IMG/VR virus record: IMGVR_UViG_3300032287_000883
Span: 1 to 64,000 of that record
From: a virus
Length of the DNA stretch: 64,000 nt
Reading direction: 5' to 3' (one strand)
In this document: positions 23,508 to 52,700 of the stretch, one piece after another
Layout of the letters: the number at the start of each line of letters is the position of its first letter
Position numbering within the stretch: the stretch's first letter is position 1
The notes under the pieces: model-generated
Databases searched by the model: none
What the model was told of the DNA's origin: nothing
The model's input: only the letters and a program-made list of their open reading frames with translations
Position numbers and translations under genes: made by a program

Positions 23508-24149
23508 TTAGAGTTTATCGGTTGGTATCGCTTCAACCAACATGTCGAGAATTGTTTGAAGTAGATCAAGGTCGGTGCATTTACCCGCTTCAATCTTTAC
23601 CGCTCCGCGAAGGGTTTTTAGTTCTTCCCCATGTTCTTTGTTCTCGGCGGATTGTTTCACTTTCAAAACCTTATCAAGTTCTTTGACTTGTTTTGCTGCT
23701 TCCTTGTTAGTGGGATTCTTGGCTAGCGTTTGATATGCTGCTTCCATCTGAGCGCGGATCATGGTCGGCGTCAAGTCTCCATGCTTTGCAAGTATCTCGA
23801 CGGTTTTCTTTTCGCGTTCAATCCGCTTTTTCTCGGCTGCAACTGATACCGCTTTCGGTTTAACCAGACCAAATAACTCGTCAAGTAAACCCGCAAAACG
23901 ATTCCATGCCTTGTCGGCTGCGTTTCCGGTATTGTCTGGATTTGCTTCAACGTAACCTGATACCCAACTAACCCGACCTGCTTCCCACTGATCGAATGTA
24001 GGATTTGTCCCTAGCATGCTAGCATATCCTTTCGCTGTCTCCAGATTAGCTAACTGATTACGTGCGAATTGAAAACCCGCGTCTCTTGCTGTTAATACCT
24101 GATCGGCTGATAATGCGGAGACTTGCTCCGCTATGATTTGCTTTTCCAT
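23508..24149 (-). CDS. Unknown protein, paralogue A of a tandem pair (213 aa)
   Basis: I do not recognise a family. The protein is largely alpha-helical and charged. Residues about 45-95 contain NPTFDQWEAGRVSWVSGYVEANP and DKAWNRFAGLLDELFGLVKPKA. A K/E-rich helix (EKKRIEREKKTVEILAKHGD) and RAQMEAAYQTLAKNPTNKEA follow, then AKQVKELDKVLKVK. The same blocks occur in the same order in the gene at 24421-24993, so the two are duplicates. It has its own predicted promoter (24218-24246), a dyad between promoter and start, an AGGAG ribosome-binding site and a strong terminator. This implies an independently regulated single-gene unit placed between late and early operons. Confidence 0.75.
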   Translation of the reverse strand: MEKQIIAEQVSALSADQVLTARDAGFQFARNQLANLETAKGYASMLGTNPTFDQWEAGRVSWVSGYVEANPDNTGNAADKAWNRFAGLLDELFGLVKPKAVSVAAEKKRIEREKKTVEILAKHGDLTPTMIRAQMEAAYQTLAKNPTNKEAAKQVKELDKVLKVKQSAENKEHGEELKTLRGAVKIEAGKCTDLDLLQTILDMLVEAIPTDKL

Positions 24150-24190
24150 CTTTATTTCTCCTGAGTTGATCGACCGGTCTGGTCTGACTC

Positions 24191-24207
24191 AATGACCCTA
24201 CGTCATT
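24191..24207 (-). promoter_or_regulatory. Operator-like dyad AATGAC-N5-GTCATT
   Basis: Perfect 6-bp inverted repeat around CCTAC. It lies at about +5 to +21 of the transcript from the promoter at 24218-24246. The same TGAC-N5-GTCA core recurs at seven other sites in 25.2-33.6 kb. Protein operator or RNA hairpin are both possible. Confidence 0.55.
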
Positions 24208-24217
24208 AAGTTCTATG

Positions 24218-24246
24218 ATTATCGCGTTTTCCTACGCTAATAGCAA
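24218..24246 (-). promoter_or_regulatory. Sigma-70-like promoter for paralogue A
   Basis: On the minus strand: TTGCTA, 17-bp spacer, GATAAT. The predicted start is near 24211, leaving a leader of about 62 nt. The paralogue B promoter shares the block CGTAGGAAAA within the spacer. Confidence 0.65.
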
Positions 24247-24329
24247 GAAATATTTAAATTATTTTTTGTTGTCATTTTGTCTTTTTTGGGATTTAGGTTT
24301 TCGCTATCAACCCAGCCAAACTGATAGAT

Positions 24330-24363
24330 TTTGGGCAGGGAACGGTCATTCCAACGCATTAGC
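24330..24363. repeat. 34-bp direct repeat, copy 1
   Basis: Matches 25127-25160 with one mismatch. It starts with TTTGGGCAGGGAACGGTCAT and includes a GGAA-N6-TTCC inverted repeat. It lies upstream of the paralogue A promoter; the second copy has the same position relative to paralogue B. Confidence 0.9.
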
Positions 24364-24375
24364 CACTTTTGGGCA

Positions 24376-24404
24376 ATAAAAAACCCCGCTGATTAGGCGG
24401 GGTT
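24376..24404 (-). terminator. Rho-independent terminator of paralogue B unit
   Basis: A perfect 8-bp stem (AACCCCGC with GCGGGGTT, 7-base loop) is followed on the minus strand by a T-rich tract. It ends the transcript of the gene at 24421-24993, 17 bp after its stop. Confidence 0.85.
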
Positions 24405-24420
24405 GGTTGGTCGGGGTTTA

Positions 24421-24993
24421 TTACTGGTATTGAATCAATACTTCAATTACTCGTTCTAAACACTCAATACTTGTACAAGCTTTGATCTCGGCTATCGCTT
24501 CGTTGCGTAGTTCCTTGATCTCGTCACGCTCGGCTTTCTCGGTGTCGCGGGTTTTGATCTTCAATACCTTCGCCAGTTCAGCGGCTTGGGCTTTCGCTAC
24601 CTTGCTATCAGGATTTTTGGCTAGTGTTTGATAGCAAGCCTCAATCTGTGAGCGTAATACAGTTGCGGTTGCGTCAGCGTACTTGGTGATTAACTTATCC
24701 TCTTTCTCTTTACGCTCGGCGGCTTTTTTGATAGCGCCTTCACTTGTGGCTTTTGGTACTACGACACCGAATCGTTCTACCAGTCTATCTTTGAACCGCT
24801 TAAACGCTTGGTCGGATGCATCGCCTTTCGCCTGTGGTTTGACGAATACATAACCGTTGATGAATTCGACCCGAGCGGCTTGCCACGTTTCATAGGTTGG
24901 CTCGGTTCCTACTTCGCGAGCAAAAACTTCAAGGGATTCAACCGCATCAATCTCACTACGAGCGAACATTTCGCCTGATTTACTTGCACTCAT
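24421..24993 (-). CDS. Unknown protein, paralogue B of a tandem pair (190 aa)
   Basis: Shares block order with the 23508-24149 product: TEPTYETWQAARVEFINGYV, QAFKRFKDRLVERFGVVVPK, a K/E-rich helix, RSQIEACYQTLAKNPDSK and ELAKVLKIK. The C-terminus ends in a short helix with two Cys (IKACTSIECLERVIEVL). No enzyme motif is visible. It has its own promoter (25045-25074), an ACTAGGAGAAA-type ribosome-binding site and a terminator. I infer gene duplication including the upstream control sequence. Function unknown. Confidence 0.75.
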   Translation of the reverse strand: MSASKSGEMFARSEIDAVESLEVFAREVGTEPTYETWQAARVEFINGYVFVKPQAKGDASDQAFKRFKDRLVERFGVVVPKATSEGAIKKAAERKEKEDKLITKYADATATVLRSQIEACYQTLAKNPDSKVAKAQAAELAKVLKIKTRDTEKAERDEIKELRNEAIAEIKACTSIECLERVIEVLIQYQ

Positions 24994-25044
24994 TTATTTC
25001 TCCTAGTTAAGACATAACGACCCGATGTCATTACGTCAGAATCA

Positions 25045-25074
25045 ATACTATTATTTTCCTACGATAATATCCAA
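25045..25074 (-). promoter_or_regulatory. Sigma-70-like promoter for paralogue B
   Basis: On the minus strand: TTGGAT, 18-bp spacer, TAGTAT. A near-dyad (AACGAC-N5-GTCATT, 25016-25032, one mismatch) lies just after the predicted start, the same arrangement as for paralogue A. The -10 match is moderate. Confidence 0.5.
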
Positions 25075-25126
25075 TTGATTGTATCTATGGCTTTTGATAT
25101 TGCAATAGTGAGAGTGTCCTTGCTTT

Positions 25127-25160
25127 TTTGGGCAGGGAACGGTCATTCCAACGCGTTAGC
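25127..25160. repeat. 34-bp direct repeat, copy 2
   Basis: Differs from 24330-24363 at one base (A to G in ACGCRTTAGC). It lies upstream of the paralogue B promoter and downstream of the HNH gene. Parts of it recur separately at 33579-33596 and, inverted, at 33977-33990. Confidence 0.9.
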
Positions 25161-25197
25161 TACTAATTGGGGAGAAGGCACGGGAGAGTTCCCTACG

Positions 25198-25219
25198 CGA
25201 CATTTTGACATCGTGTCAG
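25198..25219. promoter_or_regulatory. TGAC-N5-GTCA dyad at HNH gene 3' end
   Basis: TGACATCGTGTCA at 25206-25218 includes the HNH stop codon. Together with the preceding CGACA the 22-bp element matches the leader elements at 27824 and 29103 at about 18 of 22 positions. Confidence 0.5.
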
Positions 25220-25518
25220 TCTGTCTTGTTGTCTAGGATATTCAAAAGCATGGCTCGTTCAACATCTAATTGTTTGAGGCGGCTTTCAGCGTAGGTAGTT
25301 GCAGATCGCTTACCCTTTCTAAAATTACATTGGGCACAAGCTACAACTAAATTAGATACCACAAACTCACCCCCTTCGGCTTCAGGATGAACATGGTCAA
25401 GATGGAGGCTTCGCCCCCTAAGACTCTTCTTACCGCAATATTGGCAGGTGCGCTTGTCCCGCTTAGTTACTTCGGCTCGGATTAACTCCAGCCTAAGGCG
25501 CTCAGGTATGAATGGCAT
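25216..25518 (-). CDS. HNH endonuclease
   Basis: I start at ATG 25518 with AAAGGACG upstream (100 aa; MPFIPERLRLELIRAEVTKR). The domain has CQYCGKKS, then LHLDHVHPEAEGGEF, then NLVVACAQCNFRKGKRS: two CxxC pairs forming a zinc site around the HNH core (His-Asp-His, Asn). Such nucleases are either terminase-associated or free-standing homing-type enzymes. It lies beside the control region and faces away from the early operon, not next to terL. Which role applies cannot be told. Confidence 0.85.
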   Translation of the reverse strand: MPFIPERLRLELIRAEVTKRDKRTCQYCGKKSLRGRSLHLDHVHPEAEGGEFVVSNLVVACAQCNFRKGKRSATTYAESRLKQLDVERAMLLNILDNKTD

Positions 25519-25590
25519 ACGCGTCCTTTTAGTTAAGCTGCAACGCAGCTTAAGTTTTTTATTTAAACTTGTCAAGCACTTTTTTACCCT

Positions 25591-25644
25591 ATTGTTCGAA
25601 AAACCCAAAAATATAGAACATTACAATGAAATTTTCGAACATTA
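25591..25644. repeat. Composite GAACA repeat, copy 1
   Basis: Starts ATTGTTCGAAAAACCC, contains AGAACATTAC and ends TTTTCGAACATTA. It lies about 70 bp upstream of the HNH start. See the second copy at 25954-26007, offset by 363 bp. Confidence 0.8.
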
Positions 25645-25953
25645 TAAAATGCAGCTAACCCATTGATTACATTGAACTTTGTCCTAAAATGTTATCAAAA
25701 TTTTGTTAATTGTTCTGAAATGTTCTAATGTTCCGGCATTTTTCAGTATGTACGGATTTTTTATTTCGAACGCGCTCATCGGCAAGTGTCGTTCTAAAAG
25801 CATACAAATTTTTTAGCTCCGCTCTCTCTATCTTTAAAACATAGAACATTAGGTACATTACGTACAATCCGCATAAACATTGGGTTCTATTGTTCTATTA
25901 TTTCTTTTTGACAAGGAACAATAGGTACATTTTCGAACAATAGCAAAAAGTCA

Positions 25954-26007
25954 ATTGTTCTAAAAAACCAAAAATACAGAACATTACCCCGCTATTTTCG
26001 AACAATA
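25954..26007. repeat. Composite GAACA repeat, copy 2
   Basis: Starts ATTGTTCTAAAAAACC, contains AGAACATTAC and ends TTTTCGAACAATA. Internal spacing is identical to copy 1. It lies about 160 bp upstream of the main early promoter. Confidence 0.8.
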
Positions 26008-26168
26008 GCAAAAACGACAACACGCATATTGCAGGCTCATGTAGCTCACTACAACCCTTCTCGATACACTAAAAGCAAAGTGGTTAAGTTCCGCGCAAGT
26101 TGCCACCCCTGCCACCCTAAACTAAAAAGTTTTGCAATATACAAGGGCTTTAGAAGTAGGACAATCAC

Positions 26169-26197
26169 TTGACATTGTATAGTTTCTATGTTATAAT
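26169..26197 (+). promoter_or_regulatory. Strong sigma-70 promoter of early operon
   Basis: TTGACA, exactly 17 bp, TATAAT: a full consensus match. Transcription should start near 26204, 53 nt before the first start codon. It implies early transcription by unmodified host RNA polymerase. Confidence 0.92.
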
Positions 26198-26232
26198 AGA
26201 GGGGTTAGTGGGACTTCGCCCCTAACGTAACC

Positions 26233-26254
26233 ACGACAATCTGACGGAGGGTCA
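26233..26254 (+). promoter_or_regulatory. Dyad with Shine-Dalgarno in the loop
   Basis: TGAC-GGAGG-GTCA (26242-26254) places the ribosome-binding GGAGG in the loop between inverted arms, right before the first early gene. The preceding ACGACAA is shared with the elements at 27824 and 29103. A protein or RNA fold here could control translation. Confidence 0.55.
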
Positions 26255-26256
26255 AC

Positions 26257-26439
26257 ATGTCTATTAATTACATCTCTTACTTGCAACGTATCGTAGATAA
26301 CCCCGCAACGCCCCGCGTCGAGTACATGAGGGCATGGGAAGAACTACAGCACTTACTTATTGCACAAGGCAGAGTTCTACTCGCTGCCGATAAGTACCAC
26401 AAGAACAATGACAAGCTGACAGGTGGTCAGGATGTCTAA
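26257..26439 (+). CDS. First early gene, hypothetical (60 aa)
   Basis: The small protein starts MSINYISYLQRIVDNPATPR and is mostly helical, ending NDKLTGGQDV. It has a GGAGG site 6-7 bases upstream. Being first behind the strongest promoter, it may act early on the host or regulate the phage, but no motif is visible. The end of the gene carries another TGAC-N5-GTCA dyad (26417-26429). Confidence 0.7.
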   Translation: MSINYISYLQRIVDNPATPRVEYMRAWEELQHLLIAQGRVLLAADKYHKNNDKLTGGQDV

Positions 26440-26587
26440 ACAAAAGAAGAAGCTACGACCAAGCGTAGGCAGATGCCGAATCTGCTTGGTCAACAGCGTA
26501 GGTAAAAAACGACTTGCGTATGGTCACACCGTATGCGTCACATGCACCAAGAAGCACAACATTGAGGAGATATCAAATGAGCAATGA
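26432..26587 (+). CDS. Small zinc-ribbon protein (51 aa)
   Basis: ATG 26432 overlaps the previous gene by 8 bp, TGA at 26585-26587. The translation starts MSKQKKKLRPSVGRCRICLV and has CRIC (Cys15, Cys18) and CVTC (Cys35, Cys38): a four-Cys zinc ribbon with a basic N-terminus. It is a likely nucleic-acid- or protein-binding early protein; target unknown. Confidence 0.65.
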   Translation: MSKQKKKLRPSVGRCRICLVNSVGKKRLAYGHTVCVTCTKKHNIEEISNEQ

Positions 26588-26789
26588 AGATGCACGGTAT
26601 TTGTGCGTTGTATGTGGTGGGTACATCGACCATGCGAGATACGCTCTTGGTTACAAGCTATGCAAACCATGCGGGGAAGCTGCAGCCAAGCAGGTCAAGC
26701 ATTGCATCGCACCGCTGAACAAGTCCAACTACTACTACATTAGTAGTATGGAAACACTAAAACAACTCAACCCAAAGAGGACAACATGA
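26577..26789 (+). CDS. DksA-like zinc-finger small protein (70 aa)
   Basis: I start at ATG 26577 (GAGGAG upstream), giving MSNEDARYLCVVCGGYIDHA. Two Cys pairs, CVVC (Cys10, Cys13) and CKPC, flank an IDHARYALGYKL segment. This arrangement resembles the C4 zinc finger of DksA/TraR proteins (CxxCG..I..R..A...C..C), which bind RNA polymerase. The similarity is short and may be only structural. It overlaps both neighbours. Confidence 0.65.
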   Translation: MSNEDARYLCVVCGGYIDHARYALGYKLCKPCGEAAAKQVKHCIAPLNKSNYYYISSMETLKQLNPKRTT

Positions 26790-27025
26790 AAGGGATAAAC
26801 GTAGATATGCGCGTACTGAAAATCAACGACAGCTATCAGAGCATGTTAGGCAACATCTTGCGGCTTATTGCACATCCAGAAACAACGCCGGAGCAACTGC
26901 AGAACGCGAGGGAGATGCTTATCGATGCCAACACCACGCTGAGAAACCTGCAGTTGGACTTGTTCACCGTAGGTTATGACTTTGATATCGTCAAGGGCAT
27001 AACAAGTAACAGGAGGATGAGATGA
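26786..27025 (+). CDS. Hypothetical early protein (79 aa)
   Basis: Overlaps the previous stop (ATGA). The helical protein starts MKGINVDMRVLKINDSYQSM and contains IAHPETTPEQLQNAREMLID. No known family. Confidence 0.65.
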   Translation: MKGINVDMRVLKINDSYQSMLGNILRLIAHPETTPEQLQNAREMLIDANTTLRNLQLDLFTVGYDFDIVKGITSNRRMR

Positions 27026-27192
27026 AGCCACGCAAAAAGTATAGAGGGATAGTGGTGGTCAGGTATTACCAAACAGTCGAGGTAGAAGCTGAGTCCGAAG
27101 ATAAAGCGCGAGAGCTTATGTATGACGAGTTCCATATGAATAAATGCACAGACCAAGACAGCGAAATATACGATTTTTGGGAGGTGGTATGA
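27022..27192 (+). CDS. Hypothetical small early protein (56 aa)
   Basis: ATG 27022 overlaps the upstream gene by four bases, with AGGAGG at 27011-27016 as ribosome-binding site; TGA ends at 27192. The translation starts MKPRKKYRGIVVVRYYQTVE and continues with VEAESEDKARELM. This is a beta-beta-alpha pattern (VEAESEDKARE...) seen in many small phage proteins of unknown function. It overlaps the next gene (ATGA). Confidence 0.65.
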   Translation: MKPRKKYRGIVVVRYYQTVEVEAESEDKARELMYDEFHMNKCTDQDSEIYDFWEVV

Positions 27193-27377
27193 ATCAGGTC
27201 TGGTATGTGTGGGGCGAGAACGATAAGAACGACAGCTATTACCCAACGTTCTTTGATACGAAGCTAGCAGCAGAGAGATACGCACGCATCCTATTCCCTG
27301 ACGAGGATGTATACAAGCGGGATGCGCGTGTCTATTACCGAGATGTTCTAACAATGTCTGACTTAAACGGAGGGTGA
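27189..27377 (+). CDS. Hypothetical early protein (62 aa)
   Basis: ATG 27189 overlaps the previous stop (ATGA). The protein starts MNQVWYVWGENDKNDSYYPT, then FDTKLAAERYARILFPDEDV. A small alpha/beta protein, no recognised family. Confidence 0.65.
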   Translation: MNQVWYVWGENDKNDSYYPTFFDTKLAAERYARILFPDEDVYKRDARVYYRDVLTMSDLNGG

Positions 27378-27378
27378 G

Positions 27379-27537
27379 ATGAACAACGACAACATTTTTA
27401 CAGTAGCAACGACGATAGTCGCTTGCGTAATGGTGGCATGGGGTCTGGACACAGACGGACGATACCTGCAACAGGCAACGCTTGTGATCGCAGGTGCAAT
27501 AGTTGGTATTTTATTAAACGAAGGAGGAAAGCAATGA
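27379..27537 (+). CDS. Small membrane protein (52 aa)
   Basis: ATG 27379 with GGAGGGTGAG upstream. The sequence starts MNNDNIFTVATTIVACVMVA and shows two hydrophobic segments (about residues 7-22 and 34-46) around a charged WGLDTDGRY loop. The function is unknown. Early position argues against a lysis role. Confidence 0.65.
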   Translation: MNNDNIFTVATTIVACVMVAWGLDTDGRYLQQATLVIAGAIVGILLNEGGKQ

Positions 27538-27629
27538 ACGACTATGAAAAGGTGGCGATGCTTGCCGCAATTATGGGTGGACTGTTGGGCACAGTCTTTG
27601 GTTTGATCTTAGCCTATTGGGTGATCTGA
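27534..27629 (+). CDS. Tiny membrane protein (31 aa)
   Basis: ATG 27534 overlaps the previous stop (ATGA), AGGAGG upstream. The sequence MNDYEKVAMLAAIMGGLLGT continues into one membrane span ending AYWVI. Such mini-proteins could target host membrane components; this is inference. Confidence 0.6.
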   Translation: MNDYEKVAMLAAIMGGLLGTVFGLILAYWVI

Positions 27630-27835
27630 TGGGTACAAAAGGAAACGCACACAAGCTGCGTAAGCAAGTTGATATCGACAGGGCACGCGAGAGCGACGCT
27701 CTGTTGTATGGGTTCTTTGGTAAGAAAGCCGAGCCGGTAATCGAAGTGCAGAAACGCTTGAACCAACAACTGCGTGCGCGTGAATTTAATAACATGACAG
27801 CAGAGATAAACGAAATAAACGCAACGACAAACTGA
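27629..27835 (+). CDS. Hypothetical charged early protein (68 aa)
   Basis: ATG 27629 overlaps the previous stop (TGATG). The protein starts MGTKGNAHKLRKQVDIDRAR and has ALLYGFFGKKAEPVIEVQKR, then a helix. No recognised family. Confidence 0.65.
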   Translation: MGTKGNAHKLRKQVDIDRARESDALLYGFFGKKAEPVIEVQKRLNQQLRAREFNNMTAEINEINATTN

Positions 27836-27847
27836 CATGGTGTCAGT
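27824..27847 (+). promoter_or_regulatory. Leader element with ACTGACA-TGG-TGTCAGT dyad
   Basis: A perfect 7-bp inverted repeat, preceded by ACGACAA, in the gap before the gene at 27871. The element and its flanks to about 27863 match 29103-29142 closely. It could be an operator, an RNA processing hairpin or a regulator-binding leader. Confidence 0.6.
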
Positions 27848-27870
27848 AAGTCACAATTAGGAGAAGCATC

Positions 27871-28122
27871 ATGGGTACATGGAGTGAAGAAATAGCAGGA
27901 GTAGAAGCAGTAGACCAAATGAAAGAAGTTGTTGAGTTGGCAGGTAACTTGCAATCTTCCTTGTTTGCTACCAAAGACAGCCTTGAGGAGGCATACACCT
28001 ATGCGTATGAAATCATCAACGCATTACCGCCTGAACATCGAGCCGGAGTCATTACTGGTGTGCAGGTTCTTATCAACACAATCGCTGAAGAAATTAAGCG
28101 CAAAGCGGAGGGTAGAGTATGA
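27871..28122 (+). CDS. Hypothetical early protein (83 aa)
   Basis: The helical acidic protein starts MGTWSEEIAGVEAVDQMKEV and contains YAYEIINALPPEHRAGVITG. It follows the dyad element and a TTAGGAGAA ribosome-binding site, and overlaps the next gene by 4 bp. Function unknown. Confidence 0.65.
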   Translation: MGTWSEEIAGVEAVDQMKEVVELAGNLQSSLFATKDSLEEAYTYAYEIINALPPEHRAGVITGVQVLINTIAEEIKRKAEGRV

Positions 28123-29102
28123 CTTTATATACAGGAGACCAACTGCCAAGACTTAATTCGTATGAAGAAGCTCTGGCTTGGTATCACACAAGGGAACCGT
28201 ACAAGAGGGGGCGTAGCAAAGGCTTGCGTCCGCTTGGTGATAACCGTCGATACGACCGCAGTCTTATTTCGTTGGATACCAACAGCGAAGGACAGAACAT
28301 TGTCGTGTGTACGTTTCATAGCACACCAGTAGTTATGTTCTGCGAGGACGGTAGCGTGCTGATGATGCACGATGGGCACGAGACTATATCTACGATGGAC
28401 TTCATCAATGCCATTTTGTATACGAGATTTAGAGTACCGCCTAATAATAATCTTGTGAATGTGCATGTAGCGCAGAAGTGGTCAGGGATTACCAGACGGC
28501 GGGGGAAGCTGTATTTCTCTGATGGGCATGGCAAAGACCACAGGTTTGAGTCCGTACTAAAACTTAGTGATACGAACGAAGTAACAGGTACAGCTACAGA
28601 AAGTGCATGGACATTGAACAAGGAACGTATGGGGAAACTCAGGAAGCATTACGCCGAGTTCACCGAGTACCTAACTTACTATGCACAGATGATAGGTGAG
28701 ACAAGGATAGCGGCTGTGATCACTGCAGTTGAGCCGTTGGGAACGACGGTAACTGAGATACGGTGGTCGGAGGACAGACATCTTAAGTCTAGGAAATTGT
28801 TCTTTATGGAGTTACATAACGCGATGCAAGCAACTGGGGAAGATAAGTATGGCGCGTTCCTACTGTTAGCCGAGCAGGTGTTAGTAAATGCATCACAAAA
28901 AGTCTATGACTACAAGATGCAACAGTACAGGTATGCATGCACGCCTAGCAAAGCGAGAGATCACTTCTATGATCTGTGCCGCTTCTACTATGCGAAGAGC
29001 TTGTTTACTAGAGAGGTAGTACCACAAGGCAAGATCGTGCTAGACGATAGCATGAAGTTTTTGAAATACGGTTCGGGTGAAGCTTTACCTTTTGAAGTAT
29101 GA
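28119..29102 (+). CDS. Hypothetical early protein (327 aa)
   Basis: I do not recognise a family. The N-terminal half is beta-rich (IVVCTFHSTPVVMFCEDGSV, KLYFSDGHGKDHRFESVL), as in a DNA- or ligand-binding barrel. The C-terminal half is helical with many aromatic residues (FLLLAEQVLVNASQKVYDYK, FYDLCRFYYAKSLF). It overlaps the upstream gene (ATGA) and is separated from the MoxR-type ATPase by a dyad-containing leader, so it may belong to the same functional cassette. Confidence 0.7.
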   Translation: MTLYTGDQLPRLNSYEEALAWYHTREPYKRGRSKGLRPLGDNRRYDRSLISLDTNSEGQNIVVCTFHSTPVVMFCEDGSVLMMHDGHETISTMDFINAILYTRFRVPPNNNLVNVHVAQKWSGITRRRGKLYFSDGHGKDHRFESVLKLSDTNEVTGTATESAWTLNKERMGKLRKHYAEFTEYLTYYAQMIGETRIAAVITAVEPLGTTVTEIRWSEDRHLKSRKLFFMELHNAMQATGEDKYGAFLLLAEQVLVNASQKVYDYKMQQYRYACTPSKARDHFYDLCRFYYAKSLFTREVVPQGKIVLDDSMKFLKYGSGEALPFEV

Positions 29103-29125
29103 ACGACAACCTGACATGGTGTCAG
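29103..29125 (+). promoter_or_regulatory. Leader element with CTGACATGGTGTCAG dyad
   Basis: Near copy of 27824-27846 placed before the ATPase gene, with the same trailing TAAGT and AACTAGGAGAA ribosome-binding context. The stop codon of the preceding gene overlaps its beginning. Confidence 0.6.
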
Positions 29126-29151
29126 TAAGTCTATAACTAGGAGAAACAAAA

Positions 29152-30213
29152 ATGGAAATTCGTATGAACGTAGAAGTATCCCTTGCTGAAGCAGAAGAAC
29201 TTATCCTTGCCGTTGGTAATGAGAACGCAGTACACCTTGTAGGTGAACCCGGAATCGGTAAAACAGCCATGTATGAAAGACTAGTAGCAAGAACTGGTTA
29301 TCGTGGTGTGTATATCGACACGCCTAATACCGAGCTAGGTGACATCGGTATCCCTATGCCGAACCATGAGACCAAGACAACATCGCTGTATCCGAACGAG
29401 TTCTGGGGTTTCCATAAGCAAGAGCCGCTGATGATCTTCATCGACGAGTTCAGTAAGCCAAGCAGCCAAGCAGTACAGAACATGTTGCATCCGTTGTTGA
29501 ACGAGCGTCGCATTGGTGGCATGAAGTTACATCCTGATAGCATCGTAGTGACTGCGGGTAACAATATGTCCGATGGTGTAGGCGACATGCTGAAAGGTCA
29601 TTCGATTAGTCGTATGACTATTACTCCCGTACGCAAACCATATTGGGATGAGTATGTGGATTACGGTACTCGCGTTGGGTTTGCTCCCGAGTTGTTGGCT
29701 TTCGTACGTCAGTATCCACAAGTCATGGCGTCTTACAAAGACCCAACACAGAAGGAGAACAACTACATCTACAACCCAAAGACACCGCAGAACTCTTACT
29801 TCTGCCCACGTTCAGGTCATCGTGCTAGCAACATATTGAAGAAGCGCCACATGATTACGCGAGGTGCATTGGTGGCATCGTTGTGCGGCACGATTGGTGA
29901 GTCAGCAGCGCGTGACTTGATTGCGTATGTCGAAGTATCAGACAAGCTGCCAACATGGGATGAGGTTATCCGTGACCCGAAGGGTGCGAGTGTACCTACC
30001 AACGCAGCAGCGTTATGCATCATGGCGTATGGCGCAGTACAGAAGATTGATCGCGGCAACATCAGCGCATGGTTCGAGTATCTGAAACGTACACCGAAAG
30101 AGTTGCAGTCTGTGTTCTGTGTTACCACAAGTAAGAACGAGGACAAGAAGAACATCTTGATGACGAGTTCATCGTTCGTCAACTGGATGCGTGAGAACCA
30201 ATATTTATTCTAG
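29152..30213 (+). CDS. MoxR-type AAA+ ATPase
   Basis: The 353-aa protein has Walker A GEPGIGKT (31-38), Walker B LMIFIDEF (93-100), sensor-1 VVTAGNN (132-138) and a probable arginine finger SISRM (Arg154). This spacing is typical of MoxR/CbbQ-like AAA+ proteins. They work as chaperone-like remodelling machines with VWA-domain partners. Here a VWA/metallopeptidase gene follows after one small gene, as in MoxR-VWA, RavA-ViaA and CbbQ-CbbO systems. Substrate unknown. The start has an ACTAGGAGAAA ribosome-binding site. Confidence 0.85.
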   Translation: MEIRMNVEVSLAEAEELILAVGNENAVHLVGEPGIGKTAMYERLVARTGYRGVYIDTPNTELGDIGIPMPNHETKTTSLYPNEFWGFHKQEPLMIFIDEFSKPSSQAVQNMLHPLLNERRIGGMKLHPDSIVVTAGNNMSDGVGDMLKGHSISRMTITPVRKPYWDEYVDYGTRVGFAPELLAFVRQYPQVMASYKDPTQKENNYIYNPKTPQNSYFCPRSGHRASNILKKRHMITRGALVASLCGTIGESAARDLIAYVEVSDKLPTWDEVIRDPKGASVPTNAAALCIMAYGAVQKIDRGNISAWFEYLKRTPKELQSVFCVTTSKNEDKKNILMTSSSFVNWMRENQYLF

Positions 30214-30222
30214 GAGAAAGTT

Positions 30223-30459
30223 ATGGAAGATAACGATTCGAAAGTAGTTCACGACTTAATCGACAAGATAGGTAACGTGATTGATGGGGCCAACATGGGG
30301 CATGTTATCCCTGCCCTTATCTATTTGTTAGCTACATCACAGAGTAACGAGATCATGTCAGAGGAACATTTTGTTAAGAGCGTAGCAGAGGATTTGCTCA
30401 ACTGGTTCGTTACATTTAAGAAAGCCGAAGCGACAGGAGGTTCAGAATGGCTACAGTAA
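30223..30459 (+). CDS. Small acidic protein in ATPase-VWA cassette (78 aa)
   Basis: Starts MEDNDSKVVHDLIDKIGNVI and is all-helical with a hydrophobic centre (VIPALIYLLATSQ). It has a CTAGGAGAAAG site and overlaps the VWA gene by 13 bp. Possibly an accessory subunit of the ATPase-VWA pair; no family recognised. Confidence 0.65.
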   Translation: MEDNDSKVVHDLIDKIGNVIDGANMGHVIPALIYLLATSQSNEIMSEEHFVKSVAEDLLNWFVTFKKAEATGGSEWLQ

Positions 30460-31721
30460 AACTATCCGCAGAGAAGCGGGTTGAACGTGCCCATGCACAG
30501 CTAATGAGAAACAAAGATTTCTGTTTGTTCTCAGGTGTGTTCATGGTGGGTAAGGTATCGGTTAGCGATAGCGTACCAACTGCAGTAACTAACGGTAGGG
30601 ACGTGACGTATGGTCGCGCCTTTGTTGATTCCCTAGATGACAAGCAACTTGCCTTTGTCGTGGTACACGAAGCTATGCACAAAGCCTACCGTCATTTGTC
30701 GGTATGGAAAGGTATAGCTAGAGAGAACCCACGCCTAGCCAACGCAGCTATGGACTTTGTTATTAACTTACAGATCGTAGACTCCGACCCGAATGGTCAG
30801 GTAGTTACTATGCCACGCGACGCCGAAGGTAAGATGATCGGTTTGCTAGACGAGAAGTATCGTGACATGGATACCAAGCAAGTTTACGAGCTACTCAAGA
30901 AGGAGTGTGAGGGTGGCGACAGAGGCGGCGATGGTGGACAAACTGACGGTGGGTCAGGAAGTCCTACGAGTGGTAAGCAAGGCAATGGCAAACACAATGA
31001 TCATGGTAGTGGCGGAGAGAATTTTGACGAACATGATTGGGAAGGTGCTAATGAATTATCTAAAGCCGATGAGGATGAGCTAACTCAGGAGATCGACAAC
31101 GCGTTACGTGAGGGGGCTATTCTAGCAGGGAAAATGAAGGGCAACGTTCCACGCGGTATTGACGAGCTACTACATCCCCGAGTTGATTGGAAAGAAGCAT
31201 TGCGTATGTACGTCAAGGCAAGCGTACGTGGTGGTGACAAATCAACATGGCGTAGACCTAACCGTAGGTTCCTTGGTATGGACATCATCATGCCTAGTTC
31301 TATATCAGAGAGGGCAGGGACGATTGCTGTGGGCGTTGATCTATCAGGTTCTATCGGTGCTATGGCAGCGCAGTTCATGGGTGAGGTTCAATCTATATGC
31401 CTTGACGTTGCGCCTGAGATAGTTGAACTACTGTATTGGGATAGCCACGTAACAAACCACGAAACTTATCGTGATGCAGAAGTAGCTAACCTTATTAACA
31501 GCACGAAGCCCAAAGGTGGTGGTGGTACACAACCAGAGTGTGTGCCTATCTATCTCGAAGCCAAGAGCATTACGCCACAGTGCATCATCATGCTAACCGA
31601 TGGTGAGTTCTATGGTGATGGGTGGAAAGAGTGGAGTCGTGTATCTGCACCTGTGTTGTGGTGTGTGGTGGGTAACAAAGACTTTGTGCCGCAGTATGGT
31701 CAATCTATTTATGTAGGGTAA
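30447..31721 (+). CDS. Metallopeptidase-like plus VWA domain protein
   Basis: The 424-aa protein has an N-terminal zincin motif VVHEAMHKAYRH (His74, Glu75, His78). This is the arrangement of DUF2201-type putative metallopeptidases. A Gly/Asp/Ser-rich linker spans about 155-200. From about 290 a VWA domain follows with a complete metal-ion adhesion site: DLSGS (Asp298, Ser300, Ser302), Thr361 in GGGGTQP and Asp385 in LTDGE. In bacteria such proteins partner MoxR-type ATPases. An AGGAGG site precedes the start. The target is unknown; host-protein remodelling or virion assembly are possible roles. Confidence 0.85.
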   Translation: MATVKLSAEKRVERAHAQLMRNKDFCLFSGVFMVGKVSVSDSVPTAVTNGRDVTYGRAFVDSLDDKQLAFVVVHEAMHKAYRHLSVWKGIARENPRLANAAMDFVINLQIVDSDPNGQVVTMPRDAEGKMIGLLDEKYRDMDTKQVYELLKKECEGGDRGGDGGQTDGGSGSPTSGKQGNGKHNDHGSGGENFDEHDWEGANELSKADEDELTQEIDNALREGAILAGKMKGNVPRGIDELLHPRVDWKEALRMYVKASVRGGDKSTWRRPNRRFLGMDIIMPSSISERAGTIAVGVDLSGSIGAMAAQFMGEVQSICLDVAPEIVELLYWDSHVTNHETYRDAEVANLINSTKPKGGGGTQPECVPIYLEAKSITPQCIIMLTDGEFYGDGWKEWSRVSAPVLWCVVGNKDFVPQYGQSIYVG

Positions 31722-31734
31722 GGAGAAAATAAAA

Positions 31735-32625
31735 ATGAACGCTATAACGGAAACCCCTAAGTTTGAAACCTTTGGTATTGCATCGTCATCGTTGCTTATC
31801 GAGCTTAGTATATCTTGCTGGACTGCTAGGAAACTGGACAAGAAGGTAGGCATGGAAGTGGATGCTTCCAAGAACACTAAGGTGAAAGCAGGTAACTACC
31901 ATAAGCACCTGTTAGCAGGTAGCCCCGCGCTTGAAGCGGTGGTTAAGTATGCAGCGCAAACACGCTTGTGGAATAACTTGAACACTATGCCGTGGTCAGA
32001 CAACGGACAACGCATCGTGACAGCCGAGCATTTCTTCAATGGGTTCAAGTCGCAGATGGATGTGCATAAGAATAGCTTTGATGAACTGACTGCTAATTTC
32101 CTACAACAATACCCAACGCTAATATCTGCGGCGGCTTTTCAATTGGGTGATCTGTTTGATCGAGAGGAGTATCCCGATGTGGAGGAGATCGCGCATAAGT
32201 TTCGCTTTCACTATTCTGTTAGCCCTGTGCCGACAGCAGGAGACTTCCGCATTGACATCAACGAGCAAGCCAAAGCCGAGCTTGCTAATCAGTACGCCGA
32301 GCATTTCAATCAGCGTCTTGATGGAGCCATGCGTGACATATGGGGTAGGTTGCATGAATGTCTTACGCACATGAGCGACAGACTGACAGATAGTCAGGAT
32401 GGGAAGCGTAGGATATTCCACGATACGATGCTATCAAATGCGGATAGTCTGGTGGATTTGTTAGGTCGTCTCAATGTAACGAACGACCCCAAGTTGGAAG
32501 ATGCGCGTACGCAGTTACGTAGAGCGATAAGCAATGTAGAAACCGATGATCTCAAGGAACGCGAAGAAGTACGTTCTGAAGTTAAAGAGAAAGTCGATAG
32601 TATCTTAGCTAAATTTGATTGGTAA
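31735..32625 (+). CDS. Third member of ATPase-VWA cassette (possible DUF3150)
   Basis: A 296-aa mostly helical protein, starting MNAITETPKFETFGIASSSL. It has TARKLDKKVGMEVDASKNTK near residue 30 and a coiled-coil-like C-terminus. In plasmids and integrative elements, CbbQ-like ATPase and CobT-like VWA genes are often accompanied by a DUF3150 gene of similar length and K-x-E start pattern. I suggest membership, from memory and context only. An AAGGAGAAAA site precedes the ATG; an internal TGAC-N5-GTCA dyad lies at 32384-32396. Confidence 0.65.
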   Translation: MNAITETPKFETFGIASSSLLIELSISCWTARKLDKKVGMEVDASKNTKVKAGNYHKHLLAGSPALEAVVKYAAQTRLWNNLNTMPWSDNGQRIVTAEHFFNGFKSQMDVHKNSFDELTANFLQQYPTLISAAAFQLGDLFDREEYPDVEEIAHKFRFHYSVSPVPTAGDFRIDINEQAKAELANQYAEHFNQRLDGAMRDIWGRLHECLTHMSDRLTDSQDGKRRIFHDTMLSNADSLVDLLGRLNVTNDPKLEDARTQLRRAISNVETDDLKEREEVRSEVKEKVDSILAKFDW

Positions 32626-32635
32626 GGGAGACAAC

Positions 32636-33499
32636 ATGCAAGTAAATAGAATACCTAATCACCATGATCTTCCATTGTATGCACCGTTGGAGGAGATACT
32701 CACTAAGTTGTATCTCAAGATACCAAGACTTAATTTTTTATCGAGAGACGCAGGGTTCATGAACGGCGAGCCTAACAGTATATGCGGGGTCGTTGTGTAC
32801 AACGGCAACGAGAAAGTGGGCGAGATTAACGTAGAGTGGAAGATGCATAGAGGTGGTGACTATAGCAATGTATATACCGTATATTCGCCACGTATTAAGA
32901 ACCGTATATCGCCACGCAATTCTAAGGTAAGTAAGATATATGCTGAAGCATTGAAGGTAGCGGTGAAGATATTTTCTGCGACATCCTCTACGGCTGAAGT
33001 TATTGCCCATGTTAAACAGAAGATGAATACAGAGATAGGTGGCGTGCGATACAACGCAGTACGTCAAACCGAAAGGATAGGTGAAGAGTATCTTATTCCA
33101 CTAATGGACTTTGTTATGGCAACACATAGAGGGGAGATGCCAACCCTTGGTGCGGGGTTGAATAAGCTTGTAGCTCAACCCAACTTAGATAAGATGCTAA
33201 ACACAGCGAGGATTGCTGCAGTTGTTGATAACGATTTTAAATCAGGCAGCGGTGTTGTCATACGAGAGGAGCGAGACGGTACACTAACAAGTATTGAACT
33301 AGATACAAAGCTGTTTGATGATGCGCGTGTACGTAGTCTTAAGGATACGTATGCTTTACCAGAGTTGTATCAGACTAAGCTAGCTATGCTCCGTATATTA
33401 GAACATAGCCAACCAGTAGAATCTATCGGTGTTAAGTTTTCAATTGAGAATACCAATTGGTATTACTTAACAGGCGGTGAGATAATCATAACCAGTTAA
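32636..33499 (+). CDS. Hypothetical protein ending the early operon (287 aa)
   Basis: I start at ATG 32636 (AAGGGAG upstream), giving MQVNRIPNHHDLPLYAPLEE. The N-terminal half has alternating strands (GVVVYNGNEKVGEINVEWKM), the C-terminal half mixed helices and strands. No recognised family. It is the last gene before the terminator at 33528, so it likely belongs to the same cassette as the ATPase and VWA genes. Confidence 0.65.
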   Translation: MQVNRIPNHHDLPLYAPLEEILTKLYLKIPRLNFLSRDAGFMNGEPNSICGVVVYNGNEKVGEINVEWKMHRGGDYSNVYTVYSPRIKNRISPRNSKVSKIYAEALKVAVKIFSATSSTAEVIAHVKQKMNTEIGGVRYNAVRQTERIGEEYLIPLMDFVMATHRGEMPTLGAGLNKLVAQPNLDKMLNTARIAAVVDNDFKSGSGVVIREERDGTLTSIELDTKLFDDARVRSLKDTYALPELYQTKLAMLRILEHSQPVESIGVKFSIENTNWYYLTGGEIIITS

Positions 33500-33527
33500 C
33501 GTTCAGCAACGATAACTTCCGTTTTTA

Positions 33528-33567
33528 GGGGACAAGTTGACGGCATGTCAGTTTGTCCCCTTTTTTT
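33528..33567 (+). terminator. Strong terminator of early operon
   Basis: A 14-bp stem (GGGGACAAGTTGAC with GTCAGTTTGTCCCC, two wobble pairs) around a GGCAT loop is followed by seven T residues. The inner part is a TGAC-N5-GTCA dyad. Confidence 0.92.
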
Positions 33568-33966: not shown

Positions 33967-34000
33967 TGACCGATTCAATGACCGTTCCCTAGGAGAAACT

Positions 34001-43380: not shown

Positions 43381-43623
43381 ATGGACAACCGTGGTTACGC
43401 TTCAAGAATCACCAAAGCGAACTTAGCGGCTAGTGTGGAAAGCCCCGGTGTAGCGCTGGGGCGCTTCTGCATTACCAAAGAAATTCCAGTATCAGATGTA
43501 GCAGAATATTTTGGCGTTAGTAGGATGACTATCTACAAATGGTTTGTAGGCGAATGGGTACCTCGCAAATCTAACGCTGAAAAGATATGGGACATGCTGA
43601 AACGAGCTAAGTTCTCCCTATAA
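43381..43623 (+). CDS. Helix-turn-helix DNA-binding protein (80 aa)
   Basis: Starts MDNRGYASRITKANLAASVE. Residues 37-56 (VSDVAEYFGVSRMTIYKWFV) form a clear helix-turn-helix. The remainder is basic. It may be a transcription regulator or a small replication initiator accessory. It is the only obvious HTH protein in the window and hence a candidate for binding one of the repeated operator elements. Confidence 0.75.
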   Translation: MDNRGYASRITKANLAASVESPGVALGRFCITKEIPVSDVAEYFGVSRMTIYKWFVGEWVPRKSNAEKIWDMLKRAKFSL

Positions 43624-46762: not shown

Positions 46763-46798
46763 ACCCCCGGCATCCCCTCTTCGCCGGGGGTCTTTTTT
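46763..46798 (+). terminator. Terminator of replication operon
   Basis: A 9-bp perfect stem (ACCCCCGGC with GCCGGGGGT) is followed by CTTTTTT on the plus strand. It overlaps the stop of the convergent giant gene. Another hairpin (46722-46754) with 6-9 bp stem lies just upstream. Confidence 0.88.
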
Positions 46799-49700
46799 AG
46801 TCCTCGTCTTCAGCAAACTCACCCATCTCCGACACTTCACTACGCAGTTTCTTGGTAATGTCCGCACCGAAAGCTTCTGTTTCAGCAGCGCGAGTAGCTC
46901 TCTTCTTAAATGACTCTCTGATTTTTTTAGGGGTGATAGCTAGGCCGGGGTGCTTTGAACTAAAGTCACTTGCCCGTTCAAGAGCATCATCAAACGCTTC
47001 AGAATTATCACGCTCCATCCATAGCCGGTTCATGATTGCGTTGCGTTCGTCCAAAATCTTTTGCTCTTTAAGTTTCATCGCAATAGCGGCTTTTTGTTTT
47101 TGGGCTAGGCGTTCAGGCTGAAGGCCGATTGCTTGCATAGCTAATTCTGTGGCTGTAAAGTCATCCAGTACCACATCGCCACCCTTGGTGGTTGCCCCCT
47201 CTTTACCCATACGTACAGCGGACATGGGTTTAGCTACAATCGCTGGCATCGCCGTTTCAATTGCACGCGAATACTGACCTTCTTTTGCAAGTTGATATAC
47301 CTCGGTGCCCCGTAAGCCAAGCCCAACAACCGGCCCTGCGTTAGCTATTATTGATTCGATGAAACTTTCACGGGCATCAGGAGAGTAACGACCATCTCTC
47401 CACAGAAGGGCTTTAGGGTCTAAGCTAATACGATCTGATATAGCCATACCCATAGCTGAAGGTACACCACGGGAAACAACTTCTCCAGCGGTACGACCAA
47501 CTTTTTCTGCGGTCTCTGGTTTCACACCTGCATTGGCAAGCATACCACCAAGGTATCCGCCAAATTCGGTTTCCATATAGTTATAGAACCAAGTTTCCCA
47601 ATTAAAATAGTCATCGTCATCATCACCAGCAAACATCTTGACGAGAGTGCCAATAACCAAAGAGAAGTATGGCATTGCAGCCTGACCACCTAGGACAGCG
47701 GTCATACCAAGAATACCCGCAAGCCGACGACGAGCTTCTTTGCCAAGCGCCTTTTGCTGGGCTTCAACTTCTTCTACCCGTTGGGCAATAATTTGGTCTT
47801 TGTTAGGAGCGGTTTTAAGTTCCGCTTCCAACATGTTTTTATACTGCTCAATTTCTTCTTTATTAAAAGGTCTAACCGCGTAATCTAAATTCCGCCCAAG
47901 AGCGTACATCGCCAAGATTGGGTATTGTTTAAATTTCAAAAGCACCATACCGGCTGGATGTGCAAAAACACGCCCCTTCATCTGCCGAGAGAAGTCACCT
48001 AAAGTAAGTGCCGCTACCCGCGTAGCTTCTTCAATAGCAAGCTCAAACGCTTGGTTTGGTGTGTTCTTTATTTTATTTCCGTTAGCGTCCCGCAAGAAGA
48101 CTCCACGTAATCCTTCCATACCCGGTTGGCGCTGATACTCATTTAATAGTTTTTCGTACGCTAGTTCAAACGTAGTCATCAAAACAATTTCACGGTTCAT
48201 GCGTTCAGATTGGTGGAACAACCCGGACATGGTTTTCTTAACCATTGCACCCACGCCTGTATATAGCTGCGATGGGCGGTCTCCTAGATTCATAACGTCG
48301 TTGGTTATGGATATATCAATCTGTCCGCTGTCGATAAACCGATCCGCTGCACGACGTAGTAACGGAGAAAGATTTGCACCCTCCACAATGGAAGGGAAAT
48401 GCACTCCTACAACCGTGCCATTTTTAATAGGACTAAAGACGCGTTTAGGTACCGTACCAAGATACACACCTAAGTTCTTCACAAGCAACGTATTTGCTTT
48501 GAGGTATCCATACGACCCGCCAAGATACGGCATAGCTAATTGCACTGCGCCAAGCGTATTAAGTATTGCCGTAAACGGAGCCGATAACATATAGTAAAAC
48601 GTAAGCTCTGAGGCTTTACCCGCTACCTGTGCAGCAAGGCTTGTATCCTCGTTGCTCATAATACTAGGCACGCGTTTCTCTACTTCGTTAATAAAGTCTC
48701 TGTGCATAGCTGCTTGGTCAGCATTCAGCATCTTAGCCTGTTCGGCGCTATCAATCTCGCTTCGTGCGTTGTTTAAGTTCTGCAAGAACTTTTCCGCAAA
48801 CATAAACCGAGACTGCTGATACGCACTATGCACCGCAGTAGTAGCGAATACACGAAGCATGTCTGAACTAGCACCTTGAATTGCTTTACGGTTGATAAAC
48901 ATCTTCCGCATGCTTTGCTGTGGGAGTAGCACGTATACAAGCTGATTCAAGCTATCCTGCAACTGTTCTTTTAAGTCGGCAGTATCTGTAGCAGAAATCG
49001 AATCTACTAACTCTTGCACATCTTTCAATACCTGAGTAGTACCTACGTTTCGGCTGTAAAGCTCAGAGATGCCGTTACCTTTACGGATAGATTCGCCAAG
49101 CTGTTTTTGTTTAACATTTCCTCTTGCCAGTTCTTTCTGCCTACGATTCATAGCAACGTTGCGTGCAAGTGAACTTTCAAATGTATAAAACTCTTTGAAG
49201 TTACCCGAACCGACTTGGAACCAGTAGTTACCAAAACGACGTAGTGGAAAATACGGCTTGACTAATTTATCTGGGCCAAATTGCTCATCAATCTTTTTAA
49301 TTAGTTTTGCGCGTTCAACAGGGTCTTGAATAGCTGCCGCCCTACGCTTCATTTCGCGCACCATCTCATTAACGGAGTTAGCGTAGAAGTTGCGAACGCG
49401 CCGATAAATATCTTTATACTCAGGTTTAAGCGCGTTCCAAGCTCTTTGCATTTCGGGGTTTAACGTACCCGGTTGTGCGGTGTCTGGATCAACGCCTCGT
49501 ATCGTCGCTTCCATCATGATGCGACCCATCAACTGAGATTGAGCAAAGTTCTTATTCTGTAACTTAACCCAATCGGCGGTAATCTGCGAAGCGACGTTTA
49601 ATTTCTTAGCGCGGTATGCAACCATGTCACGGATAGTTGTAAGTGCGCCAGTAAGCTGAGTAAATTTAGTACGAGTTAAATCTTCAAGCTGCGTTAGGTT

Positions 49701-52700
49701 AAGTACAGGAAGGGTTACTTCCCGCAACATAGTGCTCTTTGAATCCCACACCGCAGGGCCAATAATCTTTATTGCTGTTTTCCACTCCATGCGACCTGCA
49801 TAAGCATCCTTCATAGTCTGCAGGATTGAGCTTTGCTGGCTCTCTGCATCGCGATAGCTAGTAGGAGTAGATATAGGGCCACGTACGCGTCTACCGCGCT
49901 TCTTACCTTGAGCAAAGTCTGGGCCTGAAGGTTTAGTTTCTTGGTATCGAGTGGCAGTAAATAACTTCTCAGCTTCCGTCATTGCACGACTAGCAAGGTT
50001 ATTAAACCCAACAAGTTTGAAGATAGCGTTAACAAACCTAGCTAAAAGCCCAGATTCTCCAGAGTAATTTGCCGCTGCTGGGTATGGAATCTTCTTTAAT
50101 TCTTTAGCAAACTCAGGGTTAGTAAACAGTTCAGCAATAAATTCTTTTACGTTGCGAAACCCGTAGTGGTTAACCTTTATATTATCTTTAGCAAGGTTAT
50201 AAAGTTTTTCTAGTTCATTCCGTGCAGCAAGTTGTTCAGGTGTAAGCTGAGATGGGTTTGCCTGTAGTAATGAAACCGTAGCTGCGTGAACTACTTCATG
50301 TAAGAATACTCTATTACCAATACCCCGAATTTTTTTGCTATTTAAGGTAATAGTGTCGAATATATTAAAGTACGCGCCCGGTATATTATTGATGTTAGAC
50401 ATCTGTTCATACACAATACTTACGTCTTTAATTTCATTAGCAATCGGCCCAAGACCTTTAACAAAAGTTGCATACTGACCAGCACCAAGCTGCAGTCTAA
50501 GAATAATTAACCCAGAAGCTACTCTCCCTATATTTGCAGGGTTGCGGTAGTCATAAAAGTATTGTGCATATATCTTGGGGCTAGCGGTCTCCACATAACT
50601 CATAATCCGACTGATTTGTGGGCCTACAAGTCTATCAATCGCTTTCTGTGCAATCTGTGCAGTATTATCAAAGCCGATAGTAGTTTGTAAGTTAAGCGCC
50701 AAAAGTTTTGTAGCTAGTTCTCCATAGAACCCAGTCATACCCTTAGAGAGTATTTTTAATGCACCGTTGAGGTCGTTGTTCTTTATAGCCTCTACTACAG
50801 AAGGATGTAAGTCTCCGGCCCTATTAAACTGCTCTTGAAGTTTTTTCTCTTCTGCACTGATTTCGGTTTCTGCCGTAGTCCAACCTTTGTTGGGGTTTAT
50901 ATTTGGGAATACTATGTTCTCGCCGTCCATCAACATTTCACGACTTACAAACGTACCATCCCCACGCAACACGGCATTTAGTCCACGGATGATAGGGTCA
51001 TCACTTGGTAGCGCAAAAACTTCTTTTAGTTTCTGTACAAGTTCTTTCAGGTACTGCATGACCCTACGGAATCTATTTTGGTAGGCTACACCGTACCTAC
51101 CGGCGATAATATTAGAGCCAGTAACCGCCCAAAACTCTGAAGGGTTCATTAATGCGTAAAGCGCACGAGGTACTTCACCTCGTAAAATCATATTTAGCGC
51201 CCTGTTAAATGCGGATGCATCCTGAGTGGCATTAGCTTCTGCAACAACATGGAGGTAATTTAATATATTTTCTTGGCGTACAACTTCCTCACGTAACTCT
51301 CTTAGTTTACTTTCAGCCTCAATACGTTTATTAATATCGGGGTGACTTAAGTTTTTGGTTTGCTTTTCTATTTCAGCATTAGCTTTATTACGCTTTTGCT
51401 CTGCTTCTTTTGTAGTAACCTCAAGTCTTACGCGCCATTCATTTCGTATTAGCTTACGTAAATTGTCAGGGAGCATCCTTTCCATATGGTGCAGTATTTC
51501 ATGCACTGCTGTAAGGTCGTCCATCTCCCTATACACACCGTTTCTATCGCGAACCAAGAATAGGTTTATGAGGCGTTGTGTTCGTTGGTATATACCGTCA
51601 GCGCTATCGGCAATAGAACCTCTAGTATTAGTTGGCTCGGCAATAGATATAGCTAAATCCGCAGCCATTGCACGGTTCTGCGTAAGGAACCAGATTGCCA
51701 TATCAGCCATCTGTGGGGATATTTTCCCTTGCCTAGCTGCGTCTTCCAACGCTTTGACAACCCTACCAAATCCACGCTCTCTTGGTAAATTAGACCTAGT
51801 GGCGCTACGCATTGCGCGTTGTTCAGCAAGACGTTCCGTAAGTTTATTCATCTCACGGGTGTACTCAAAATAGGTTATTGCACCGTCATTCCACAGTTGG
51901 TTGATACGGTTAACCCCATGTTGATTTTGCGGAACCATGTCCGCAAGAGAAACGTCTACCTGCGATAAACGACGTGCAAGATTAGGTAGTATGTCTTTAT
52001 CCTGTATATCAGCAGATGTATCTTCAGTATCAACCGACTCTAAAACTCCTTTAGCTTTAAGTTCGGCTTGCCCTAACTTAATATATGCTTCTTGTCTTCT
52101 CTGCGCTAACGCATTTCTTTCTTCAGCAGACGCTGCCGAAAAGTACGCATTATTTGCGGCTTCAACTTCTTGTCTAGCAGCAACTACTTCAGGGTTCTTT
52201 GCTAACTCTGCATCTTCTCGTGTTTTTGTTTCGGCGGTTCTAGCGTCCATTAATTTTTTCTCAGACGCAACCCAATCCCAATGCGCTTCTATGCGCTGCT
52301 GTTCTAGCTCTTCATACTTTTTACGGGCAGGGGAGTTCTTTGCCGGGATGCGACCAGCCTTAGTCAAAAGCGCTTTTTGCTGTTCTACAATATTTCTTAC
52401 TGCATCGTGTCGAGCAAGTTCTTCTTGTTCAAGCGCGGCTATATCTACGCCGCCTCTTACTTTTTCCTCATCCAATACTTCTTCTGCGACTGGTGTTGCA
52501 TTAGCCCTAGCTTCTTTTACAAGTTCGTTTAAATCATTAAATATTTGCGTTGCTTCTTCTACTTTATATATAGATTCTCTAAGTCTAACTCCTACCTCAT
52601 CTAATTTTTGCTTTGCTTCTTCAAATGCCTGATACGCAGATGCCTGTTCTTCTTCTGGAGTATTTTCAGTAAGCGAATTAAATCTTTTTTCGGCGGCTTG

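Follow-up and report, generated by a model that had tools for sequence, protein, structure and literature searches.

A conserved set of palindromic dyads along the early operon of an uncultivated phage and its candidate regulators, the paralogous proteins A and B

In the early transcripts of phage lambda the nut/boxB elements, short stems with a 5-nt loop, act on RNA. The Cluster A mycobacteriophages, which are temperate, contain stoperators, 20–30 copies per genome of an asymmetric 13–14-bp site found both at promoters and away from them and recognized by the phage repressor (gp71 in L5, gp69 in Bxb1), a monomer with two DNA-binding domains; the consensus is distinct for each lineage, motif distances follow repressor distances, and the sites are biased in orientation or strand relative to transcription (PMC3029335, PMC6550527, PMC9283540). 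In the temperate prophage SPbeta a 15-bp repeated element in promoter regions, SPBRE, is bound by the master repressor MrpR, a protein with a tyrosine-recombinase fold (PMC10516654). Here we describe a set of TGAC-N5-GTCA dyads in 64,000 nucleotides of viral DNA (positions 1 to 64,000 of IMG/VR record IMGVR_UViG_3300032287_000883; the whole stretch is called the window). An earlier note, made from reading the sequence, had reported these dyads from the control region and early operon and interpreted them as a dedicated set of regulator-binding sites, possibly acting on RNA.

We propose, with a probability of about 0.68, that the dyads are DNA operators of a phage-encoded, autoregulated repressor system, formed by the paralogues A and B and acting in a stoperator-like manner along the early operon. 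The proposal is carried by the site set itself, by its conserved placement in relatives, by the concerted change of whole sets, by the lack of an RNA-stem signature and by the way in which A/B follow the dyad, all of which come from sequence comparison.

The window contains nine exact TGAC-N5-GTCA sites, all between 24.2 and 33.6 kb. Eight had been listed in the earlier note, each with correct coordinates; the ninth (30944–30956, inside the DUF2201 gene) was absent from that list. The note's estimate of about one site by chance agrees with 100 dinucleotide shuffles, which gave 0.80 sites on average, never more than 3 and hence never nine. Scanning the window and the whole 65.6-kb record revealed no TGAC-N5-GTCA beyond the same nine places, so that the confinement to 24.2–33.6 kb was borne out; the reversed-pattern control matched twice in the record. 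N5 is by far the most enriched TGAC/GTCA spacing with its nine sites, nearly all other spacings giving 0–1. Rfam and tRNA scans yielded no matches.

Comparison with relatives, collected via the MoxR gene, placed the 13-mer in the middle of a two-part palindrome of 27 bp, GACAwnCTGAC-N5-GTCAGnwTGTC, with the outer arms GACA and TGTC. A scan of 2.9 million viral contigs with this longer form returned 83 stretches, many from multi-site contigs. The fetched loci hold 270 distinct sites at no more than 4 of 18 mismatches (permuted-arm patterns, run on a subset of loci, gave 1–5 matches), and all of 24 whole records carry sites, typically 7–11, the reversed control pattern giving 0; in those of the 24 that were listed in full, the sites fall almost wholly within one block. 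Since the 27-bp motif has only four scattered single matches in 84,980 bacterial and archaeal genomes (GTDB), it belongs to phages rather than to hosts. The terminase-related isolated phages 023Pt_psg01, HTVC027P, HTVC023P, DSL-LC04 and Pag-Yong1 have no such sites in the 50 kb of each that were examined. The proposed operators of the window, given as 27-bp units, and the genes to which they relate are the following (ORF, open reading frame; pLDDT, predicted local distance difference test).

23508..24149, minus strand: gene A, 213 aa, proposed repressor of the A/B family
24186..24212, minus strand: operator in the leader of gene A; exact core 24193–24205, predicted −10 box about 6 nt upstream
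24421..24993, minus strand: gene B, 190 aa, proposed repressor of the A/B family; confident, all-helical AlphaFold2 model (mean pLDDT 89.6)
25011..25037, minus strand: degenerate operator in the leader of gene B; core 25018–25030, 4 of 18 mismatches in the 27-mer; relatives are canonical there, with a −10 box ending 7–8 nt before
25199..25225, no strand assigned: operator in the divergent control region, with counterparts in L008 and L010–L012
26169..26197, plus strand: strong sigma-70-type promoter of the early operon, TTGACA-17-TATAAT with TG before the −10 box, 12/12 matches
26235..26261, plus strand: operator that covers the ribosome-binding site of the first ORF and follows the −10 box of the early promoter at about 40 nt; L007 and L009 alike
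26410..26436, plus strand: operator that covers the ribosome-binding site of the second small ORF; L006–L008 alike
27826..27852, plus strand: operator in the leader of an 83-aa ORF (27871–28122)
29105..29131, plus strand: operator in the leader of the MoxR ATPase gene
29152..30213, plus strand: MoxR-type AAA ATPase, core gene, the query for relatives
30447..31721, plus strand: DUF2201 metallopeptidase/VWA-like protein, core gene containing an operator
30937..30963, plus strand: operator inside the DUF2201 gene, in a variable Gly-rich linker; exact core 30944–30956; 20 contigs
31735..32625, plus strand: conserved ORF containing an operator, without Pfam match; tentatively labelled DUF3150-like from its gene neighbourhood
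32377..32403, plus strand: operator inside ORF 31735–32625; 6 contigs
33531..33557, plus strand: operator that forms the stem-loop of the operon terminator (33527–33561, followed by a T run)

Positions are conserved, as the comparison proposed in the earlier note was to reveal: dozens of related contigs keep sites at equivalent places. Among phages whose MoxR is about 53–88% identical to that of the window, the MoxR leader site is found in 26 contigs, the site in the variable linker of DUF2201 in 20 and that inside ORF 31735–32625 in 6; the terminator stem after ORF 32615–33499 carries a site in most of a class of 30; the first small genes have sites over their ribosome-binding sites, and paralogues A and B in their leaders. 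The near match that the note had recorded at 25018–25030 is genuine, the gene B leader of relatives having a canonical or near-canonical site (L007:4146, L008:4350, L009:4672). When relatives of many dyad classes are taken together, 39 of 48 have a site in the 400 nt that precede the MoxR start, usually at 34–62 nt, and 30 of 38 A/B genes have an operator near the 5′ end. In the A/B leaders of several relatives the predicted −10 box ends 5–8 nt before the site, which therefore begins approximately at the transcription start. The location just downstream of promoters, as noted earlier, calls for a qualification: a site immediately at a predicted promoter is seen only in the A and B leaders, the first site after the strong rightward promoter lying about 40 nt downstream of its −10 box.

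Whole sets of dyads change together. In L010–L012 there are 7–8 TTAC-N5-GTAA dyads at the same places and no TGAC dyads. A wider MoxR profile led to 79 loci, 72 of which were subjected to a de novo dyad search; 49 of these had an enriched dyad in the same layout, usually in 5–13 copies, whereas none of 45 block-shuffled loci passed the threshold. (Block shuffles were used because the strict Poisson dyad score proved unreliable in very GC-rich sequence, as seen with Pag-Yong1 as control.) The inner dyads include GCGAC, GTGTC, TCGAC, CCGAC, TCGAA, GTTAC, CTTAG, ACCCT, GTACG, CATTG and others, the outer modules GGACA, GAACA, GGAA, TCACA or ACTT, and in most classes the palindromes are at least 27 bp long. 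Roughly 20 specificities occur among distant relatives that share the operon, the dyads being unrelated and the layout the same. Conserved placement and the switching of entire sets strongly support a dedicated regulator-binding site set, as had been suggested. In L078 and L086 (3300036770_001875, 3300042987_000557) a variant dyad CTGAG..CTCAG with GAC/TGTC outer arms directly follows strong −10 boxes.

Which protein would recognize the dyads? For every conserved early-region protein we asked how well its distance between phages follows that of the dyad, with MoxR distance controlled for (partial Mantel test). For A/B the partial r was 0.65 (0/999 permutations), and it stayed at 0.58 without the GTGTC class and at 0.65 without the CTGAC/TTAC class (0/999 each); the values for the other proteins were 0.26 (DUF2201), 0.04 (ORF 31735), −0.07 (g28119, the product of 28119–29102) and 0.02 (g32615, the product of 32615–33499). 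At equal MoxR identity, A/B are 64–83% identical in pairs with the same dyad and 16–42% in pairs with different dyads. A natural swap is found in L175 and L176: MoxR is 92%, the conserved ORF 90% and DUF2201 80% identical, the core genes and the left-flank gene together 77–92%, whereas A/B reach no more than 24% and the dyads, GGACAAAGTGTCA versus TCACAAATCGAAA, differ at every site found. In this pair g28119 is 39% identical, but same-dyad pairs in general are nearly as low (39–69%, median 42%). Among the proteins tested, A/B alone track the dyad sequence consistently, and this coevolution supports paralogues A and B, named in the earlier note, as the cognate regulators.

That note had also named a helix-turn-helix (HTH) protein of 80 aa (43381–43623), weakly similar to SpoIIID and nearly universal in the phage group. 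Either this protein, g28119 or g32615 could be the regulator, with A/B merely linked to the sites, but we regard this as unlikely. Of 15 diverse relatives 13 encode a member of the HTH family, as does every near-complete dyad phage that was examined; g28119 correlates with the dyad in one subset. The recognition helix of the HTH protein, VS[RK]xT[IV]YxW, is however nearly constant across phages with TGAC, GCGAC, GTGTC, TCGAC, CGAA and ACCCT dyads, which makes it a poor candidate, its target probably being something other than the dyad; overall, g28119 and g32615 show no partial correlation to speak of, and in the L175/L176 swap conservation extends to the left-hand neighbour of A/B and to the core genes starting with MoxR. 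In the CTTAG-dyad phage G036 (C1:34057–34284; L238) the HTH match holds one in-frame TAG codon. The products of 28119–29102 and 32615–33499 are universal, fast-evolving early-operon proteins without any family. The model of g32615 is confident and alpha/beta. The gene order of Pag-Yong1 suggested that g32615 might be a relative of AcrVA2; no similarity was found. Neither the model of B nor that of g32615 had a fold match; tblastn gave no match for B, g28119 or g32615 in the phage collection, and the sequence libraries only weak, scattered ones for A/B, g28119 and g32615.

Each site lies in a transcribed region, some over ribosome-binding sites and one coinciding with the terminator hairpin, and the first loop position is A in 67% of the transcribed-strand sites. 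The dyads could therefore be RNA hairpins, either translational operators or nut-like antitermination elements, recognized by an RNA-binding protein of the phage. G.U pairs and compensatory changes would then be expected in the stem, but in two independent site sets there was no excess of G.U over A.C and almost no compensation: stem deviations at 249 sites in transcribed orientation were 26 G.U, 22 A.C and 130 other, those at 277 sites of 39 other phages 41 G.U, 39 A.C and 78 other, with 5 compensated, and in both sets most affect a single arm. Three related contigs have conserved sites with the mixed arms CTTAC..GTCAG and CTGAC..GTAAG, which cannot pair, yet contain a valid half-site on each side. 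The sites of one phage share their arm sequence but differ in the loop, and the 2-nt spacers are unpaired in most sites. The earlier idea of an action on RNA is thus not supported; the sites look like elements of DNA, and we consider hairpins quite unlikely.

How might A/B and the dyads work? Each operator is a 27–33-bp palindrome with two-part half-sites (outer GACA, inner CTGAC), to which a dimer of A/B probably binds. Leftward transcription of A and B begins at promoters whose starts lie under an operator, which implies autoregulation. The remaining operators are spread along the rightward early operon, in leaders, at ribosome-binding sites, inside two genes and at the terminator, where bound A/B, by analogy with stoperators (PMC3029335, PMC6550527, PMC9283540), would stop elongating RNA polymerase and so close the early operon segment by segment. 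The A/B repressor would thus halt initiation at its own promoters and elongation in the early operon. Binding of A/B to the dyads, the elongation block and its timing we infer, as we do repression rather than activation, which is assumed because of the position of the operators.

Several observations weigh against such a repressor system. A/B have no convincing Pfam or PHROG family and no PDB or BFVD fold match, so that a DNA-binding domain was not recognized; their PDB profile matches (cholera toxin B, designed helical proteins) were weak and partial and taken as chance. By profile, A/B were not found in the dyad-bearing phages G024, G029, G034 and G038, which may be due to divergence or to incomplete records. 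G019 has the TGAC dyad, yet its A/B are only about 25% identical to B of the window. Because A/B lie in the control region, linkage contributes to their correlation with the dyad; the phage pairs in the correlation tests are not independent, and in one subset of 14 phages, not overall, g28119 correlates as well (r = 0.51). Finally, when orientation is compared with transcription, the dyad arms are symmetric but the 5-nt spacer is strand-biased, the first position being A in 67% and the last T in 29% of the transcribed-strand sites, which a plain symmetric dimer or site does not explain.

Many copies in one block of the genome, with an iteron-like region nearby, could also indicate structural or replication sites (centromere, packaging or nucleoid); this we judge very improbable, since the sites follow the early transcription units, cover the starts of the A/B promoters and end at the operon terminator, the rest of the genome being devoid of them. 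Bacterial regulators typically bind two-part palindromes, but that the phage recruited a host transcription factor is scarcely credible given the four scattered single matches in GTDB and the unrelated dyads of close phages.

If the dyads are A/B operators, they most likely serve to shut off early genes or to exclude related phages. Classical lysogeny is not apparent, since no match to PF00589 or PF00239 (tyrosine and serine integrase) was obtained in 16 long, possibly incomplete records, in which parABS was not searched for. We suggest only tentatively, and would not bet on it, that these apparently non-integrating phages form a family built on fast-diversifying A/B repressors, whose many specificities come from interchangeable outer and inner half-site modules; they would then constitute immunity groups, allowing superinfection exclusion or a dormant, non-integrated state without lysogeny.

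Other features of the window were seen in passing. A near-identical element, GGGCAGGGAACGGTCATTCCAACGC, is located upstream of both A and B (24333–24364 and 25130–25159); a portion, ATGACCGTTCCCTA, is found again near 33979 and, in L014, beside an operator. Among the fetched loci an HNH endonuclease ORF (25216–25608), whose stop codon overlaps an operator, is found only in the near-identical L005. The stretch between the divergent transcription units (25589–26014) contains iteron-like repeats, ATTGTTCGAAAA, ATAGAACATTA and TTTTCGAACAATAG, a candidate replication origin. A 2543-aa protein with a DarB-like antirestriction match is encoded at 46797–54428.

We found no report of the motif or of the A/B family in the literature, the coverage of which lacked most subscription papers and all preprints. 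The dyads resemble lambda nut/boxB in having a short stem and a 5-nt loop in early transcripts, but differ from boxB and from translational RNA operators in that the G.U and compensatory retention of the stem was looked for and not found. With SPBRE they share a repeated element at promoter regions of one phage and, as proposed here, binding by a single repressor; unlike MrpR, the A/B model lacks a PDB fold match, and no Phage_integrase domain was found in these phages. With the Cluster A stoperators they share the presence of one site in multiple copies per genome beyond the promoters, and site classes that follow the candidate repressor. The system described here works like a stoperator network and stands outside that group in site symmetry (27–33-bp palindromes with two-part half-sites, usually 5–13 copies, early region only), in repressor domain (A/B have no convincing Pfam, PHROG, PDB or fold match, the stoperator repressor being an HTH protein) and in integrase (none detected, as opposed to temperate phages). 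One temperate group of mycobacteriophages provides the best-known networks of operators extending into an operon; the version described here is palindromic and is found repeatedly in a broad group of uncultivated aquatic phages, with an unannotated candidate repressor and about 20 specificities. A probable function can thereby be assigned to the A/B family, and dozens of natural protein/operator pairs, together with a near-perfect swap, allow direct tests of the recognition code and of how phage immunity types evolve.

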